DNA of 64,000 nt from Fructobacillus sp. CRL 2054 (GTDB lineage Bacteria > Bacillota > Bacilli > Lactobacillales > Lactobacillaceae): NCBI RefSeq assembly GCF_028764065.1, contig NZ_JACOFN010000001.1, positions 1-64,000 on the forward strand, in the 5' to 3' direction. Below are positions 8,155 through 60,721 of this stretch, one piece after another. Position numbers and translations under genes: made by a program. Each line of letters begins with the position of its first letter. The first letter of the stretch is position 1. Under the pieces are notes generated by a model. It was given only the letters and a program-made list of their open reading frames with translations. It did not search any database and had not been told where the DNA came from.

Positions 8155-8425
8155 ACCTTAAAACAAAGCACCGATTAGGAGAGTAGCTTTAGATTCCATT
8201 CTCAGGAAGCTTACGTAGGACTGCGAGTAAGCAATGGATCTTCTGTGAACCACACCTAGGAGCGTGCAGGCGAACTTTAAGTAGTCTGCAACGATTTGTA
8301 CCCGTTACCGTACTAGGCGTCTTTGACGTCTTGAGGTTGGGTCAGCGATGACTCGACAACTATGAGGTGGAACCGCGTTCTTTATCGCCCTCTAAGCACT
8401 AGCTGTGCTTAGAGGGCTTTTTTAT
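8155..8425 (+). ncRNA. T-box riboswitch, probable histidine specifier (CAC)
   Basis: The T-box motif AGGTGGAACCGCG is at 8365-8377, followed by a strong terminator (GCCCTCTAAGCAC paired with GTGCTTAGAGGGC, then TTTTTT, 8387-8425). In stem I, TTAGG (from 8175) pairs with CCTAG (from 8255), and AGATTCCATT pairs with AATGGATCT. The 3' side of the intervening loop reads GAAC-CAC-A, placing CAC (8251-8253) in the specifier position, by analogy with GAAA-GGC-A in glyQS leaders. This predicts antitermination by uncharged tRNA-His and a histidine transporter downstream. An out-of-register reading would give CCA (Pro). Confidence 0.85.
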
Positions 8426-42970: not shown

Positions 42971-42999
42971 TTGACAAAAAAAACGCCCCCCGGTACACT
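42971..42999 (+). promoter_or_regulatory. Promoter of the cysteine-attenuated operon
   Basis: A perfect TTGACA (42971-42976) and TACACT (42994-42999) are spaced by 17 bases, with transcription expected near 43006, about 20 bases before the leader-peptide ATG. About 200 AT-rich bases between the metG promoter and this one show nothing else. Confidence 0.85.
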
Positions 43000-43027
43000 T
43001 AGTGCATATCACAAAAGGAGACAACCT

Positions 43028-43102
43028 ATGAACGCGAACATTCGAAACAACCAACAACTTACGACGACTCTTATGGTTTGCTGTTGCGCACCTCTTTTTT
43101 AG
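43028..43102 (+). CDS. 24-residue leader peptide with three consecutive Cys codons
   Basis: ATG at 43028, preceded by AAAAGGAG 7 bases upstream, opens a frame encoding MNANIRNNQQ, then LTTTLMVCCCAPLF and TAG (43100-43102). The codons TGC TGT TGC occupy 43079-43087, four codons before the last sense codon is passed. The stop codon overlaps the first base of the antiterminator arm. Placement between promoter and terminator, consensus initiation signals and the clustered rare amino acid mark it as an attenuation leader sensing charged tRNA-Cys. Confidence 0.88.
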   Translation: MNANIRNNQQLTTTLMVCCCAPLF

Positions 43103-43170
43103 GGTGGCGTTTATAGGCTAAAAACCACCCACTAGCAGAGGATAATCTGCTGAATGGGTGGTTTTTATTT
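43102..43170 (+). promoter_or_regulatory. Transcription attenuator: antiterminator and terminator hairpins
   Basis: GGGTGG (43102-43107) can pair with CCACCC (43125-43130), with a second stem TTTA/TAAA inside, forming an antiterminator. Alternatively ACCACCCA (43124-43131) pairs with TGGGTGGT (43155-43162), enclosing GCAG/CTGC and followed by TTTTTATTTT, a strong terminator. The two share 43125-43130 and exclude each other. A ribosome stalled on the Cys codons leaves GGGTGG free and permits read-through; one reaching the stop codon covers it and lets the terminator form. Confidence 0.87.
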
Positions 43171-43193
43171 TGCAAAAATTTAGGAGTATACAA

Positions 43194-43988
43194 ATGAATA
43201 AGAAAATGGCAATTATCCTCGCAGGTCTCATCGTTATCATTGGCGGTATCTTTGGTATCGTGAAAATGACCTCGTCGAACTCAGAATCAACAACCATCAA
43301 GTCCGGCACCTTCACCGTTGGACTGGAGGGGACTTACGCGCCCTTCTCCTACCACGACGATAAAGGGAAGCTAACCGGATTCGAAGTTGAAATCGCCGAA
43401 GCGCTGGCTAAGAAAATGGACATGAAGGTCAACTTTGTTCAGTCTAAGTGGGACTCATTAATCGCTGGCCTCAACTCCAAGCGCTACGATGCCGTCATTA
43501 ACAACATCGGCATCACAGACGAGCGTAAGAAGAACTACCGCATGTCAACAGCCTACCTGTATCCACGCGCGGCGTTGATCAAGCGTACTGGTGATACTTC
43601 CCTGAACAACCTGTCCGACATCAAGGGAAATACGATGGCTCAATCCGTTACTTCCAACTATGGTAAGAAGGCCAAAGCCGAAGGAGCCAACATCAAGGCC
43701 GTTGCCGGTATCATCGAGGCCATGAACTTAGTCACAACAAACCGTGCCGATGGTTCACTAAACGACATGGGGGCCTTTGAAAACTGGAAGCAGTCCAACC
43801 CCAACGCCGATGTGGAAGCCGTCGATATTTCAAAAGAAATGGGCTCAACGCCTGACGGTGTCTTGATGAACAAGGACAGCAAGAAGTTGCAGTCCAAGGT
43901 CAACAAGGCCATGCAGGAGCTTCGCGACGACGGGACTTTGACAAAGCTTTCAAAGAAATACTTTAACAAGGACCTAACCAAGGAATAA
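43194..43988 (+). CDS. Cystine-type ABC transporter substrate-binding protein, signal-anchored
   Basis: 264 residues from ATG 43194 (AGGAG 7 bases upstream). One N-terminal hydrophobic segment (about 5-23) lacks a lipobox Cys. The mature domain starts GTFTVGLEGTYAPFSYHDD and has GFEVEIAEALAKKM and VINNIGITDERKK, closely resembling FliY/TcyJ-type cystine-binding proteins. It is the first structural gene after the Cys-codon attenuator, which independently supports cystine or cysteine as ligand. Confidence 0.9.
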   Translation: MNKKMAIILAGLIVIIGGIFGIVKMTSSNSESTTIKSGTFTVGLEGTYAPFSYHDDKGKLTGFEVEIAEALAKKMDMKVNFVQSKWDSLIAGLNSKRYDAVINNIGITDERKKNYRMSTAYLYPRAALIKRTGDTSLNNLSDIKGNTMAQSVTSNYGKKAKAEGANIKAVAGIIEAMNLVTTNRADGSLNDMGAFENWKQSNPNADVEAVDISKEMGSTPDGVLMNKDSKKLQSKVNKAMQELRDDGTLTKLSKKYFNKDLTKE

Positions 43989-44016: not shown

Positions 44017-44715
44017 ATGATTGACTTTTTCAACCTGGCAGTCAAATACCTGCCCGAGCTCTTCATGACAGCGCTCAAATATACCCTCCCATTAACGGCC
44101 ATTGCCTTCTTCTTTGGTATCATCCTGGCCTCCATTACCGCCATCATTCGAGTGGCTAAATTACCACAAAACGAATGGGCAGCAGCTGCGCTTCAACTAC
44201 TTAAGTGGTTAGCAGCAGCCTACGTTTGGTTCTTCCGTTCCACACCACTTTTGGTGCAACTCTTCATTGTTTTTTACGGTTTGCCAAACGCTCACATCGC
44301 TCTTTTCCAATCTGCTTGGGTTTCAGCAATCACCGTCTTTTCACTCAATACTGGGGCCTACGCTTCCGAAACGATTCGAGCAAGCATCGCCTCCGTACCC
44401 GAAGTACAAAAGCAGGCAGCCGAATCCTTAGGGATGACAAGCGCACAGGTCTATTGGAACGTGGTTTTACCACAGGCAGCACGGATTTCCATCCCACCGC
44501 TCTCCAACTCACTGATTTCACTGTTAAAGGACACTTCCTTGGCATCCGTTATCACAATTGTCGAAATTTTCTACCTAGCCCAACAAATTGCCGCGGCGAA
44601 CTATAAGGTTCTATCCATGTACATCTTAGTGGCTATGGTTTACGCCTTCTTCACGTCAATCCTAGCGATTGCCCAACATTACTTAGAGAAGTACACATCG
44701 AGGTTCGCACAATGA
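44017..44715 (+). CDS. Cystine-type ABC transporter permease
   Basis: 232 residues with about five membrane helices and the loop GAYASETIRASIASVPEVQK with downstream AAESLG (about 111-137), the EAA motif of HisM-type permeases. FFRSTPLLVQLFIVFYG is the family signature near residue 74. It overlaps the ATPase gene by 4 bases. Confidence 0.9.
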   Translation: MIDFFNLAVKYLPELFMTALKYTLPLTAIAFFFGIILASITAIIRVAKLPQNEWAAAALQLLKWLAAAYVWFFRSTPLLVQLFIVFYGLPNAHIALFQSAWVSAITVFSLNTGAYASETIRASIASVPEVQKQAAESLGMTSAQVYWNVVLPQAARISIPPLSNSLISLLKDTSLASVITIVEIFYLAQQIAAANYKVLSMYILVAMVYAFFTSILAIAQHYLEKYTSRFAQ

Positions 44716-45446
44716 TTCAAGTTGAACATCTTTTCAAGCACTATCCTGATAAAGTCGCCCTCGACGACATCAATCTCACCTTCCCGGCCGAACAAACCAT
44801 AGCCATCGTGGGTCCTTCTGGTTCTGGTAAGTCCACCCTGCTTCGTTCGCTGAACCTACTGGAACGGCCGGACCAGGGAAAGTTGCAAATCGATGATTTG
44901 ACTTTGGACCTTTCACAGCCAATCACGACAAGCCAAATCTTACAGATTCGGCAAAAAACGGCGATGGTCTTCCAGGAAAAGGCTTTGTTCACGCACTTAA
45001 CGGTGATGCGTAATTTGACCGAAGGTCCCATTAAGGTTCAAAAGAAGAACAAGCAAGAAGCCGAAGCAAAGGCCAGCGAACTCCTCGAACAATTTGGTAT
45101 GTCCGAACTAGCCGACCGCTATCCTTACCAACTTTCTGGAGGACAGCAACAGCGTGTTGCCATTTTACGAGCGCTGGCTATGTCACCAAAATACCTACTA
45201 TTAGACGAACCAACATCCGCTCTCGATCCCGAGTTAGAGGCACAGGTTCTGCGTGTTCTGAAAGACTTAGCAAAAAAAGATACTTCGATGGTTGTCGTCA
45301 CACACAACATGGCCTTTGCAGAACAAGTCGCCGACCAGATTGTTTTCATTGATGATGGTAAAGTTGGCTATAATGGAGCTACGGAAACTTTCTTCCACTC
45401 TGATAGCGAACGCATTCAACAATTCTTGGGAGCAATGTCCTTCTAA
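44712..45446 (+). CDS. Cystine-type ABC transporter ATP-binding protein
   Basis: 244 residues with Walker [10 protein letters not shown], signature [15 protein letters not shown] and Walker [13 protein letters not shown]. Its length and sequence are those of polar amino-acid importers (TcyC/GlnQ). The stop codon shares a base with the start of the following nuclease gene. Confidence 0.92.
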
Positions 45447-46351
45447 TGGCCAAACGTCGAAAACAATCTAAATCCCGCTTTTCTCAAACCATTGCAATTA
45501 TCATCGCAATTGCTGCTGTACTCTCCTACCAAGCCTTTGGTCAGGATAATCACAAGCACAAATCAAGTACCGGGCAAAGTCAGTCCAAGGTACTTCAATC
45601 GGCAAAGAAAGCCAATAAGTCTGCCAATACCCCATCAAGTTCTGCCTCTAACGATGCTGATTTATTAAACATCAAATGGGACGGCACCCTTGATGGCGAT
45701 ATTGTTCATTTGAATAATAACCAGGCGACTTTTACAGCGACTGAAATGCAGGAAACCTTTCCCGGCAACGGCAGTAAGCTAAACCCAGTCGATGGTCTTT
45801 CACTATCGGCTCTTGATTCCTTAGGCCGTTCTCAGCAAGCTAACTTTGTCGCTTCTAAGGCTGCTATGGATCAGGTTACCAAGCGTCCTAGCCAAATCCC
45901 ACAGTCAGTTCGACCATCCGGTTGGAACCAAAACGATCACTTTAACGGGACCGCCTGGATTGGTGGCTACCACAACAATCCCAAGGTTACCCTTGGCGGT
46001 AGCAAGCAAGCCCTCTGGAATAAGTCCCACATCGTCGGTTACCAGTTCTTTGGTATGCCTACTATGGTGACGGAAAACATGACAACCGGGACCCGCGTTG
46101 AAAACGCCTATCCAGGTCAGTTAGTACCGGAGGATGATATCCGCTATGCCATTAAGCAGAACCCAAATATCACCATCCGCGGACAGGTAACTCCTGTTTA
46201 CTCAGGTAACGAACTCGTACCCCGTGGTGTTCACTACATGGCCAAATCGGTTGAAGATAATGGGGCTAGTCTCAACCTGAACTACTGGATATTTAATGTT
46301 CAACCTGGTGTTACGATTAACTACAATACCGGCTCATCAACAATCAATTAA
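45446..46351 (+). CDS. Secreted or membrane-anchored DNA/RNA non-specific endonuclease
   Basis: 301 residues. A basic N-terminus and one hydrophobic segment (about 14-31) are followed by a Ser/Lys/Asn-rich linker (to about 70) and a nuclease domain of the EndA/NUC2 type. The catalytic His lies in NKSHIVGYQFFG (about 191-202), where many relatives have DRGHLLGY, followed by TGTRVENAYPGQ. It begins within the ATPase stop (TAATG), so it is co-expressed with the cystine transporter. It could scavenge extracellular DNA; the link to cysteine starvation is unexplained. Confidence 0.85.
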   Translation: MAKRRKQSKSRFSQTIAIIIAIAAVLSYQAFGQDNHKHKSSTGQSQSKVLQSAKKANKSANTPSSSASNDADLLNIKWDGTLDGDIVHLNNNQATFTATEMQETFPGNGSKLNPVDGLSLSALDSLGRSQQANFVASKAAMDQVTKRPSQIPQSVRPSGWNQNDHFNGTAWIGGYHNNPKVTLGGSKQALWNKSHIVGYQFFGMPTMVTENMTTGTRVENAYPGQLVPEDDIRYAIKQNPNITIRGQVTPVYSGNELVPRGVHYMAKSVEDNGASLNLNYWIFNVQPGVTINYNTGSSTIN

Positions 46352-60520: not shown

Positions 60521-60716
60521 AAAAAAAAGCGCCCTAATCTTTCGATTAGGACGCTTACACGTGGTACCACCTAAATTGTGTTCACTAACTTATCGTTAGA
60601 AAACACCACTTCATTTAAATCAATTATTAACCCCTAGCAACCTTCCGCATTAACTCTCCTACTTCACAGCTTCCAGTAGGTCTCTTTCAGTAGCGCTTGC
60701 GTACTCCTCTAGGTTG
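60521..60716 (-). ncRNA. T-box riboswitch of valS, specifier GUU (Val)
   Basis: On the minus strand the T-box motif AGGTGGTACCACG (60560-60572) is followed by a terminator, AAGCGTCCTAATC-GAAA-GATTAGGGCGCTT and TTTTTT (60521-60556). In stem I, CCTA/TAGG and CGCA/TGCG enclose GAAG-GTT-G, placing the valine codon GTT (60639-60641) in the specifier position. Uncharged tRNA-Val would promote read-through into valS. Confidence 0.9.
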
Positions 60717-60721
60717 TACTT

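Follow-up and report, generated by a model that had tools for sequence, protein, structure and literature searches.

Ribosome-mediated attenuators of the trp, his, leu, ilv and phe operons of proteobacteria combine a leader ORF with protector (1:2), antiterminator (2:3) and terminator (3:4) pairings, and in E. coli trp the leader RBS is masked. The leader described here, which precedes an operon for a cystine-type ABC transporter in Fructobacillus sp. CRL 2054, resembles them in its leader ORF with regulatory codons and in candidate pairings of the same three kinds, and differs in its cysteine codons, its transport operon, its place in the Lactobacillaceae and a predicted closing stem that holds the leader start codon. 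Poly-Cys leaders of cys operons were reportedly the subject of Canestrari et al. in 2020, a study cited in PMC9094748 and PMC13236596. In actinobacteria, Cys-codon runs near the stop of a short uORF are described at the cys operons of Mycobacterium and P. acnes and at cbs of B. longum, with no conserved terminator hairpin found and Rho-dependent termination proposed (PMC1262725). The present leader shares with these the Cys codons near a short uORF stop and the link to cysteine genes, but carries an intrinsic terminator and a candidate antiterminator (PMC1262725).

Three further sources concern the Firmicutes: bacilli have a His leader at hisZ/hisS* (PMC2965389), Listeria has the leader-peptide attenuator Rli60 at ilv (PMC5864092), and S. 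aureus has a leader rich in Leu at ilv (PMC5794164). These systems likewise pair an amino-acid leader peptide with attenuation, whereas they serve other amino acids and biosynthetic or synthetase genes, and the likeness is one of description rather than of sequence (PMC2965389, PMC5864092, PMC5794164). We searched Rfam and open-licence PMC text and found, among the matches listed, neither a cysteine attenuator in lactic acid bacteria (PMC text) nor cysteine sensing by leader translation coupled to an intrinsic terminator (both resources). The features that set it apart within this known kind are the use of cysteine, the lineage, the intrinsic terminator and the control of a transport operon. 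We conclude that the leader is very probably a ribosome-mediated, Cys-codon transcription attenuator that gauges charged tRNA-Cys, and the evidence that we regard as decisive is comparative, coming from the sequences of related genomes.

Anatomy of the leader and its operon

The window, by which we mean the whole 64,000-nucleotide stretch analyzed (positions 1 to 64,000 of contig NZ_JACOFN010000001.1), comes from a 1.33-Mb draft genome of 27 contigs that is 91.8% complete. The features of the locus are as follows.

42971..42999, + strand: sigma-70-type promoter, -35 TTGACA at 42971-42976, -10 TACACT at 42994-42999, spacer 17 bases (read directly)
43015..43020, + strand: ribosome-binding site AAGGAG of the leader ORF (read directly)
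43025..43035, + strand: 5' strand of the closing stem, CCTATGAACGC, start codon within, predicted partner 43107-43117 (fold)
43028..43102, + strand: leader ORF, 24 codons plus TAG, MNANIRNNQQLTTTLMVCCCAPLF* (read directly; relatives)
43079..43087, + strand: regulatory codons TGC TGT TGC, codons 18-20 (read directly)
43089..43093, + strand: segment 1, predicted protector strand, partner 43102-43106 (fold)
43102..43107, + strand: segment 2, GGGTGG, candidate antiterminator strand over the stop codon (read directly; duplex test)
43107..43117, + strand: 3' strand of the closing stem, GCGTTTATAGG, directly behind segment 2 (fold)
43119..43167, + strand: predicted intrinsic terminator hairpin (segments 3 and 4) with U-tract (fold, dG -25.9)
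43125..43130, + strand: segment 3, CCACCC, common to antiterminator and terminator (read directly)
43194..43988, + strand: extracellular solute-binding protein, family 3, putatively cystine type (PF00497, 141 bits; NCBIfam cystine model best, under its cut-off; best PDB match 2YLN)
44017..44715, + strand: ABC permease (cystine permease model best in NCBIfam, under its cut-off)
44712..45446, + strand: ABC ATPase (TcyN model best in NCBIfam, under its cut-off and narrowly above ArtP and GlnQ)

Direct reading confirmed every letter and position that had been predicted for the promoter, the RBS, the 24-codon ORF, the Cys codons and the GGGTGG/CCACCC/GGGTGG series. The leader peptide ends in VCCCAPLF* (asterisk, stop), with its stop codon at 43100-43102, and segment 4 is the GGGTGG at 43156-43161, with TTTTTATTTT behind it. 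Folding of the 169-nt leader gives -54.1 kcal/mol, far below the average of -33.6 for its shuffles (z -5.8; equaled by 0 of 200 shuffles), and its minimum-energy fold contains both the closing and the protector pairings, which were absent from the earlier reading. Among relatives, a leader ORF with an RBS, one mark of ribosome-mediated attenuators, is predicted in the window and in 23 of 23; a promoter-like match precedes the leader in 15 of the 23 extracts, the remainder being unmatched or too short; and an intrinsic terminator lies between leader and first gene in the window and in the folded relatives, damaged in L052/L102.

From this arrangement we infer the following mechanism. Transcription would start near 43006, as placed by the promoter, and a ribosome following RNA polymerase would translate the 24 codons of the leader. 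If Cys-tRNA ran short, the ribosome would stall on codons 18-20 and cover segment 1 while leaving segment 2 free, so that GGGTGG at 43102 could pair with CCACCC at 43125, the terminator would be blocked and the transporter operon transcribed. When Cys-tRNA is ample, the ribosome would reach the stop codon and cover segment 2, CCACCC would pair with GGGTGG at 43156, and transcription would stop near 43166. With no ribosome present, the closing stem may, together with segment 1, keep segment 2 bound and make re-initiation less frequent.

The original prediction described the next gene as resembling cystine-binding proteins, and profile comparisons back it: the best NCBIfam model of the binding protein is cystine (168.6 bits, under the model cut-off of 312), and the best solved relative of its profile is 2YLN, with 6A80 ranking fifth. 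In the tabulated part of one source, 2YLN appears as a cystine binder at 0.021 uM and 6A80 likewise as cystine (PMC9824665). Similarity thus supports assignment of the operon as a cystine-type ABC transporter, and the Cys regulatory codons, which are kept, match the amino acid of an operon that is of cystine type by similarity. The binding protein is 96% identical to its counterpart in Fructobacillus durionis DSM 19113 (L085). A gene for a DNA/RNA non-specific endonuclease-like protein (45446-46351, + strand; PF13930), which may be part of the cystine operon, starts right where the ATPase gene ends.

Cysteine codons in related leaders

Taking a binding-protein match with E below 1e-80 as the criterion, we found orthologues in 29 genomes of five genera: all 13 of the genus Fructobacillus and, outside it, two of Convivina (g6), two of a further genus (g39), seven of 19 of Leuconostoc (g16) and five of 28 of Weissella (g18). 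Conservation in Fructobacillus, Leuconostoc and Weissella had been named beforehand as the check on the attenuator, and it bore the idea out: all 29 orthologue-carrying genomes have a short leader ORF with Cys, and the Cys codons vary synonymously between TGT and TGC. The first ORF listings were filtered for Cys, and the search was therefore redone without that filter on 23 leaders; this Cys-blind call, which takes the first ORF to follow an RBS-like motif, again gave Cys in 23 of 23. A further Cys-blind call on eight loci returned a Cys ORF in all of them, four (L156, L158, L160 and L161) being repeats of leaders already counted, and in L159 the listing puts an overlapping three-codon ORF ahead of the Cys ORF. 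For L013 and L017 the evidence comes from the Cys-filtered listing. That listing also gave a Cys leader in 21 of 21 named records whose binding protein is at least 53% identical (L037-L056 and L085, mostly the same species). The leader MVFNYDKCQTC* of L057/L024, with a binding protein 49% identical, was left out of the 29.

The leader endings differ by lineage. Clade 1 of Fructobacillus has VCCC[ATP]PL[FI] in seven of seven genomes, clade 2 has V[KM]C.LP[LF]F in five (L014 with an additional early Cys), and one genome of the genus (L012/L045) has MFVSQSATTCC*; endings in Convivina are ..VCLTPGAC*, in Leuconostoc ..YCS.[RW]R..* or ..NCVHRR.., and in Weissella ..[YIGS]C... An alignment of 11 non-Fructobacillus leaders, built without Cys as an anchor, shows bases one and two of the Cys codon to be invariant in all 11. 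Anchored on the first Cys, 14 non-Fructobacillus leaders place it at codon 11 in 13 cases, written TGT in eight and TGC in six, and the start is the sole other residue kept. For comparison, Cys makes up 35 of 13,654 residues (0.26%) in six-frame window ORFs over 250 aa. The number of regulatory Cys per leader is three, two or one, and many leaders have one; such leaders would have to stall at a single codon, a point against the attenuator. The original reading of a Cys attenuator, with its predicted response to cysteine, is supported by the conserved Cys leader, with the qualifications that three Cys codons are not general and that the antiterminator of the window is no stronger than shuffles (p 0.26).

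A chance origin of the ORF was considered and rejected on conservation. Markov resampling of the window, repeated 200 times, yielded 16,824 short RBS-preceded ORFs, of which 13 contained CCC, about 0.07 per window; an RBS-preceded CCC ORF on its own is uncommon yet not decisive, and it is conservation that decides.

We used covariance models for retrieval. Model R1, built from 11 leaders, was run against 397 genomes from the family and matched 16 of them below 1e-4, every match adjoining the gene for this binding protein; these comprise the 11 training leaders, three near copies (G082, G252, G327) and two clearly independent leaders (L107 and L108), which are Weissella leaders unlike the training set and both contain Cys. 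Across Leuconostoc and Weissella, the 12 orthologue-carrying genomes are the same as the 12 with an R1 match, among the genomes listed. Another model, trained on clade 1 alone and run at E 0.1, found matches in 12 of the 13 genomes of the genus, including the seven training leaders; it weakly retrieved all five clade 2 leaders (G010 at 1.7e-4, G005 at 3.0e-4, G001 at 0.005, G012 at 0.024 and G003 at 0.042), with noise starting at 0.010, and missed G011. Of the weaker R1 matches, at E 3.8e-4 and above, the five that were read (L120, L109, L121, L122 and L110) showed no leader and were dismissed as noise.

Two loci depart from the common layout. In Leuconostoc pseudomesenteroides KCTC 3652 (L052:2325-2479) and in L102, the terminator 5' arm misses bases found in L. 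falkenbergense (L051/L020), and the attenuator therefore appears damaged, with the Cys leader still there. In Leuconostocaceae bacterium ESL0958 (L045/L012), MFVSQSATTCC* stops just ahead of a first terminator-like hairpin and a second hairpin follows; this could be a rearranged form that would let a stalled ribosome cover the terminator directly.

Helices, switch point and rival readings

Shuffle tests of duplexes and folding covered 24 leaders. L052, with its damaged terminator, and L004, a near copy of L003, were set aside from the duplex tests; L012/L045, whose hairpin order differs, was counted for Cys and kept outside the structure tests; and L010, L011, L014 and L015 were trimmed at the terminator before folding. 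The closing duplex of the window reaches dG -17.7 against a shuffle mean of -9.3 (p 0.002), and 14 of the 24 leaders have p below 0.05. An antiterminator helix sharing the terminator 5' arm was found in each of the 24. Its support is the better of two tests: a generic one, the probability that the terminator 5' arm pairs upstream, came first and exceeded shuffles in just 2/24, and the specific duplex test came after and gave p below 0.05 in 12/24, the window itself being no stronger than its shuffles at the p given above. The letters of this helix change by genus, among GGGTGG:CCACCC, GGCGCT:AGCGCC, GGGCG:CGCCC and GCUUGUG:CACAAGC. Of the cells in the Leuconostoc-type alignment, 83.6% are paired and 27 carry changes on both sides, and 0 of 500 shuffles, which do not preserve relatedness, reach the covariation score; one of five measures (further pair types) was no better than shuffles. 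Two-sided changes fall in the terminator and protector, and the closing stem has none. In clade 1 covariation was not above shuffles (93/500): across seven sequences every closing-stem cell is paired and the changes are one-sided only, and the four counted pairs of the protector are invariant.

To place the switch, we measured pairing of the terminator 5' arm with upstream RNA while a ribosome was set codon by codon, in a rough equilibrium model. Counting only RNA ahead of the ribosome, all 11 Fructobacillus rows showed pairing of at least 0.59 at the Cys codons and at most 0.30 at the stop (0.66 and 0.02 in the window), which puts the Fructobacillus switch point predicted by this model just after the Cys codons. 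A further 11 rows, those of other genera whose terminator is intact, gave 0.29-0.64 at the first Cys and 0.00-0.36 at the stop; outside Fructobacillus the drop starts at the Cys codon itself in most rows and is slight in L020 and L021. Keeping the upstream RNA gave a much weaker picture, with 0.66, 0.26 and 0.15 across the three Cys codons of the window and 0.14 at its stop, and 0.21, 0.13 and 0.13 across the Cys codons of L004. The contrast between stall and stop exceeded shuffles in 2/24 only, with L107 and L108 under their own shuffle means. Ribosome-free pairing was 0.40 in the window, 0.01-0.20 in L004, L009, L011, L050 and L053-L055, and 0.64-0.81 in L005, L007, L008, L010, L014-L016 and L022; it equals or nearly equals the ribosome-at-Cys value in L005, L008, L014, L015, L022 and others and exceeds it in L016. 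Because such pairing is high in several relatives, the model suggests that termination would not be a general ribosome-free default.

Several tests that came out no better than shuffles, together with related orthologues whose leaders share letters, would suit a plain uORF plus terminator that sets a constant level, its Cys codons kept by descent only. We judge this improbable, since in the leaders outside Fructobacillus the codons from start to Cys have diverged while Cys is kept through synonymous change, and the antiterminator helix has been rebuilt from other letters. Quite as improbable, in our estimate, is a nascent-peptide arrest leader akin to erm or tna, in which the peptide and some ligand rather than tRNA-Cys charging would halt the ribosome: the conserved C-termini of clades 1 and 2 are what such a peptide could show, but the 14 leaders of other genera keep nothing except Cys and the start Met, and the APL codons of the window lie partly within the protector strand, an overlap that offers an alternative reason for their conservation.

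Direct binding of tRNA-Cys by a T-box-like RNA, with AGGGTGG as its bulge, is barely credible to us. At E 0.001 the genome shows 19 T-box matches, six of them over the cut-off, and AGGGTGGCG at 43101-43109 resembles a T-box antiterminator bulge; yet none of those matches lies at the cystine leader, no T-box match was found at the locus at the gathering score or, with E allowed up to 5, in 13 loci that carry such leaders, and the motif is missing from the aligned Leuconostoc, Convivina and Weissella leaders, in which the ORF and an in-frame Cys codon are kept instead. A T-box riboswitch proper (RF00230) was rejected, the locus having no covariance-model match. More broadly, no Rfam family matched at gathering score at the leader, in the window or at the relatives' loci, and one sub-threshold Trp_leader match lies elsewhere in L016. 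The earlier statement that T-boxes are commoner in Firmicutes fits the count in this genome, but His and branched-chain leader-peptide attenuators have already been reported in the phylum. The reading that best accommodates these observations is the Cys-codon attenuator.

T-boxes do occur elsewhere in the window and at one related locus. The window holds a T-box leader (RF00230) at 8162-8395 on the + strand (98.5 bits) and a match under the cut-off at 60544-60720 on the - strand (77.3 bits), and the contig of cysS has no T-box match. Among 20 loci with less similar binding proteins, a T-box was found in one, Lacticaseibacillus zeae (L069:1183-1433, + strand, 94 bits), where it precedes genes for the permease and binding protein of a related transporter and then a metC/cgl-like gene, named by eye. 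Its bulge reads GGTGGTAA, which by the discriminator rule does not suit tRNA-Cys. One T-box among these 20 loci does not show that an older T-box gave way to the Cys leader.

A possible second leader type in Weissella and wider meaning

At 15 Weissella loci with a less similar binding protein (42-45%), a uORF ends in RC* in eight and in GCCC* in one, five have a longer Cys-free ORF, and one has an ORF holding one Cys. The Cys-terminal uORFs (L169, L171, L173, L175, L176, L178, L174, L177 and L172) read M..MRC*, MKTLMNRC*, MTILRDRC* or ..TGCCC*; the unfiltered ORF call gives the RC* ORF in six, usually not first, and for L172, L174, L177 and L168 the reading was by eye or guided by Cys. In six of these loci a predicted stem joins the uORF stop to the Shine-Dalgarno region of the gene, with 93% of cells paired and one two-sided pair, at a covariation no better than shuffles (102/500). 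A search with model R3, made for this second type, returned its own eight training loci and one weak match. These uORFs are possible cysteine-specific translational attenuators, which we offer as a lead only. It is tentative, and on balance doubtful, that this branch of the lactic acid bacteria controls cystine uptake by Cys-codon leaders rather than T-boxes in two mechanically different ways, namely attenuation of transcription, with a closing stem that masks the leader RBS, at the orthologues and amino-acid-specific attenuation of translation at the related cystine-type binding-protein gene of some Weissella.

No cysK/cysM match rises above 26.1 bits in any of the 13 Fructobacillus genomes, and a cysE-like gene (189-201 bits, under the cut-off of 210.65) occurs in five of them, which are exactly clade 2 (G001, G003, G005, G010 and G012). 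Clade 2 leaders carry one Cys codon near the end, and the CCC and CC leaders accompany weak or no cysE matches; a link between auxotrophy and Cys codon number is possible and rests on few splits.

The leaders form a natural series, with three, two or one regulatory Cys codons and diverged helices, in which the minimal stall signal of attenuation would be measurable, and they may provide a cysteine-responsive expression switch for food bacteria. For the Firmicutes, the cystine leader would add cysteine to the amino acids served by leader-peptide attenuators, and it would do so in a genome with 19 T-box matches.
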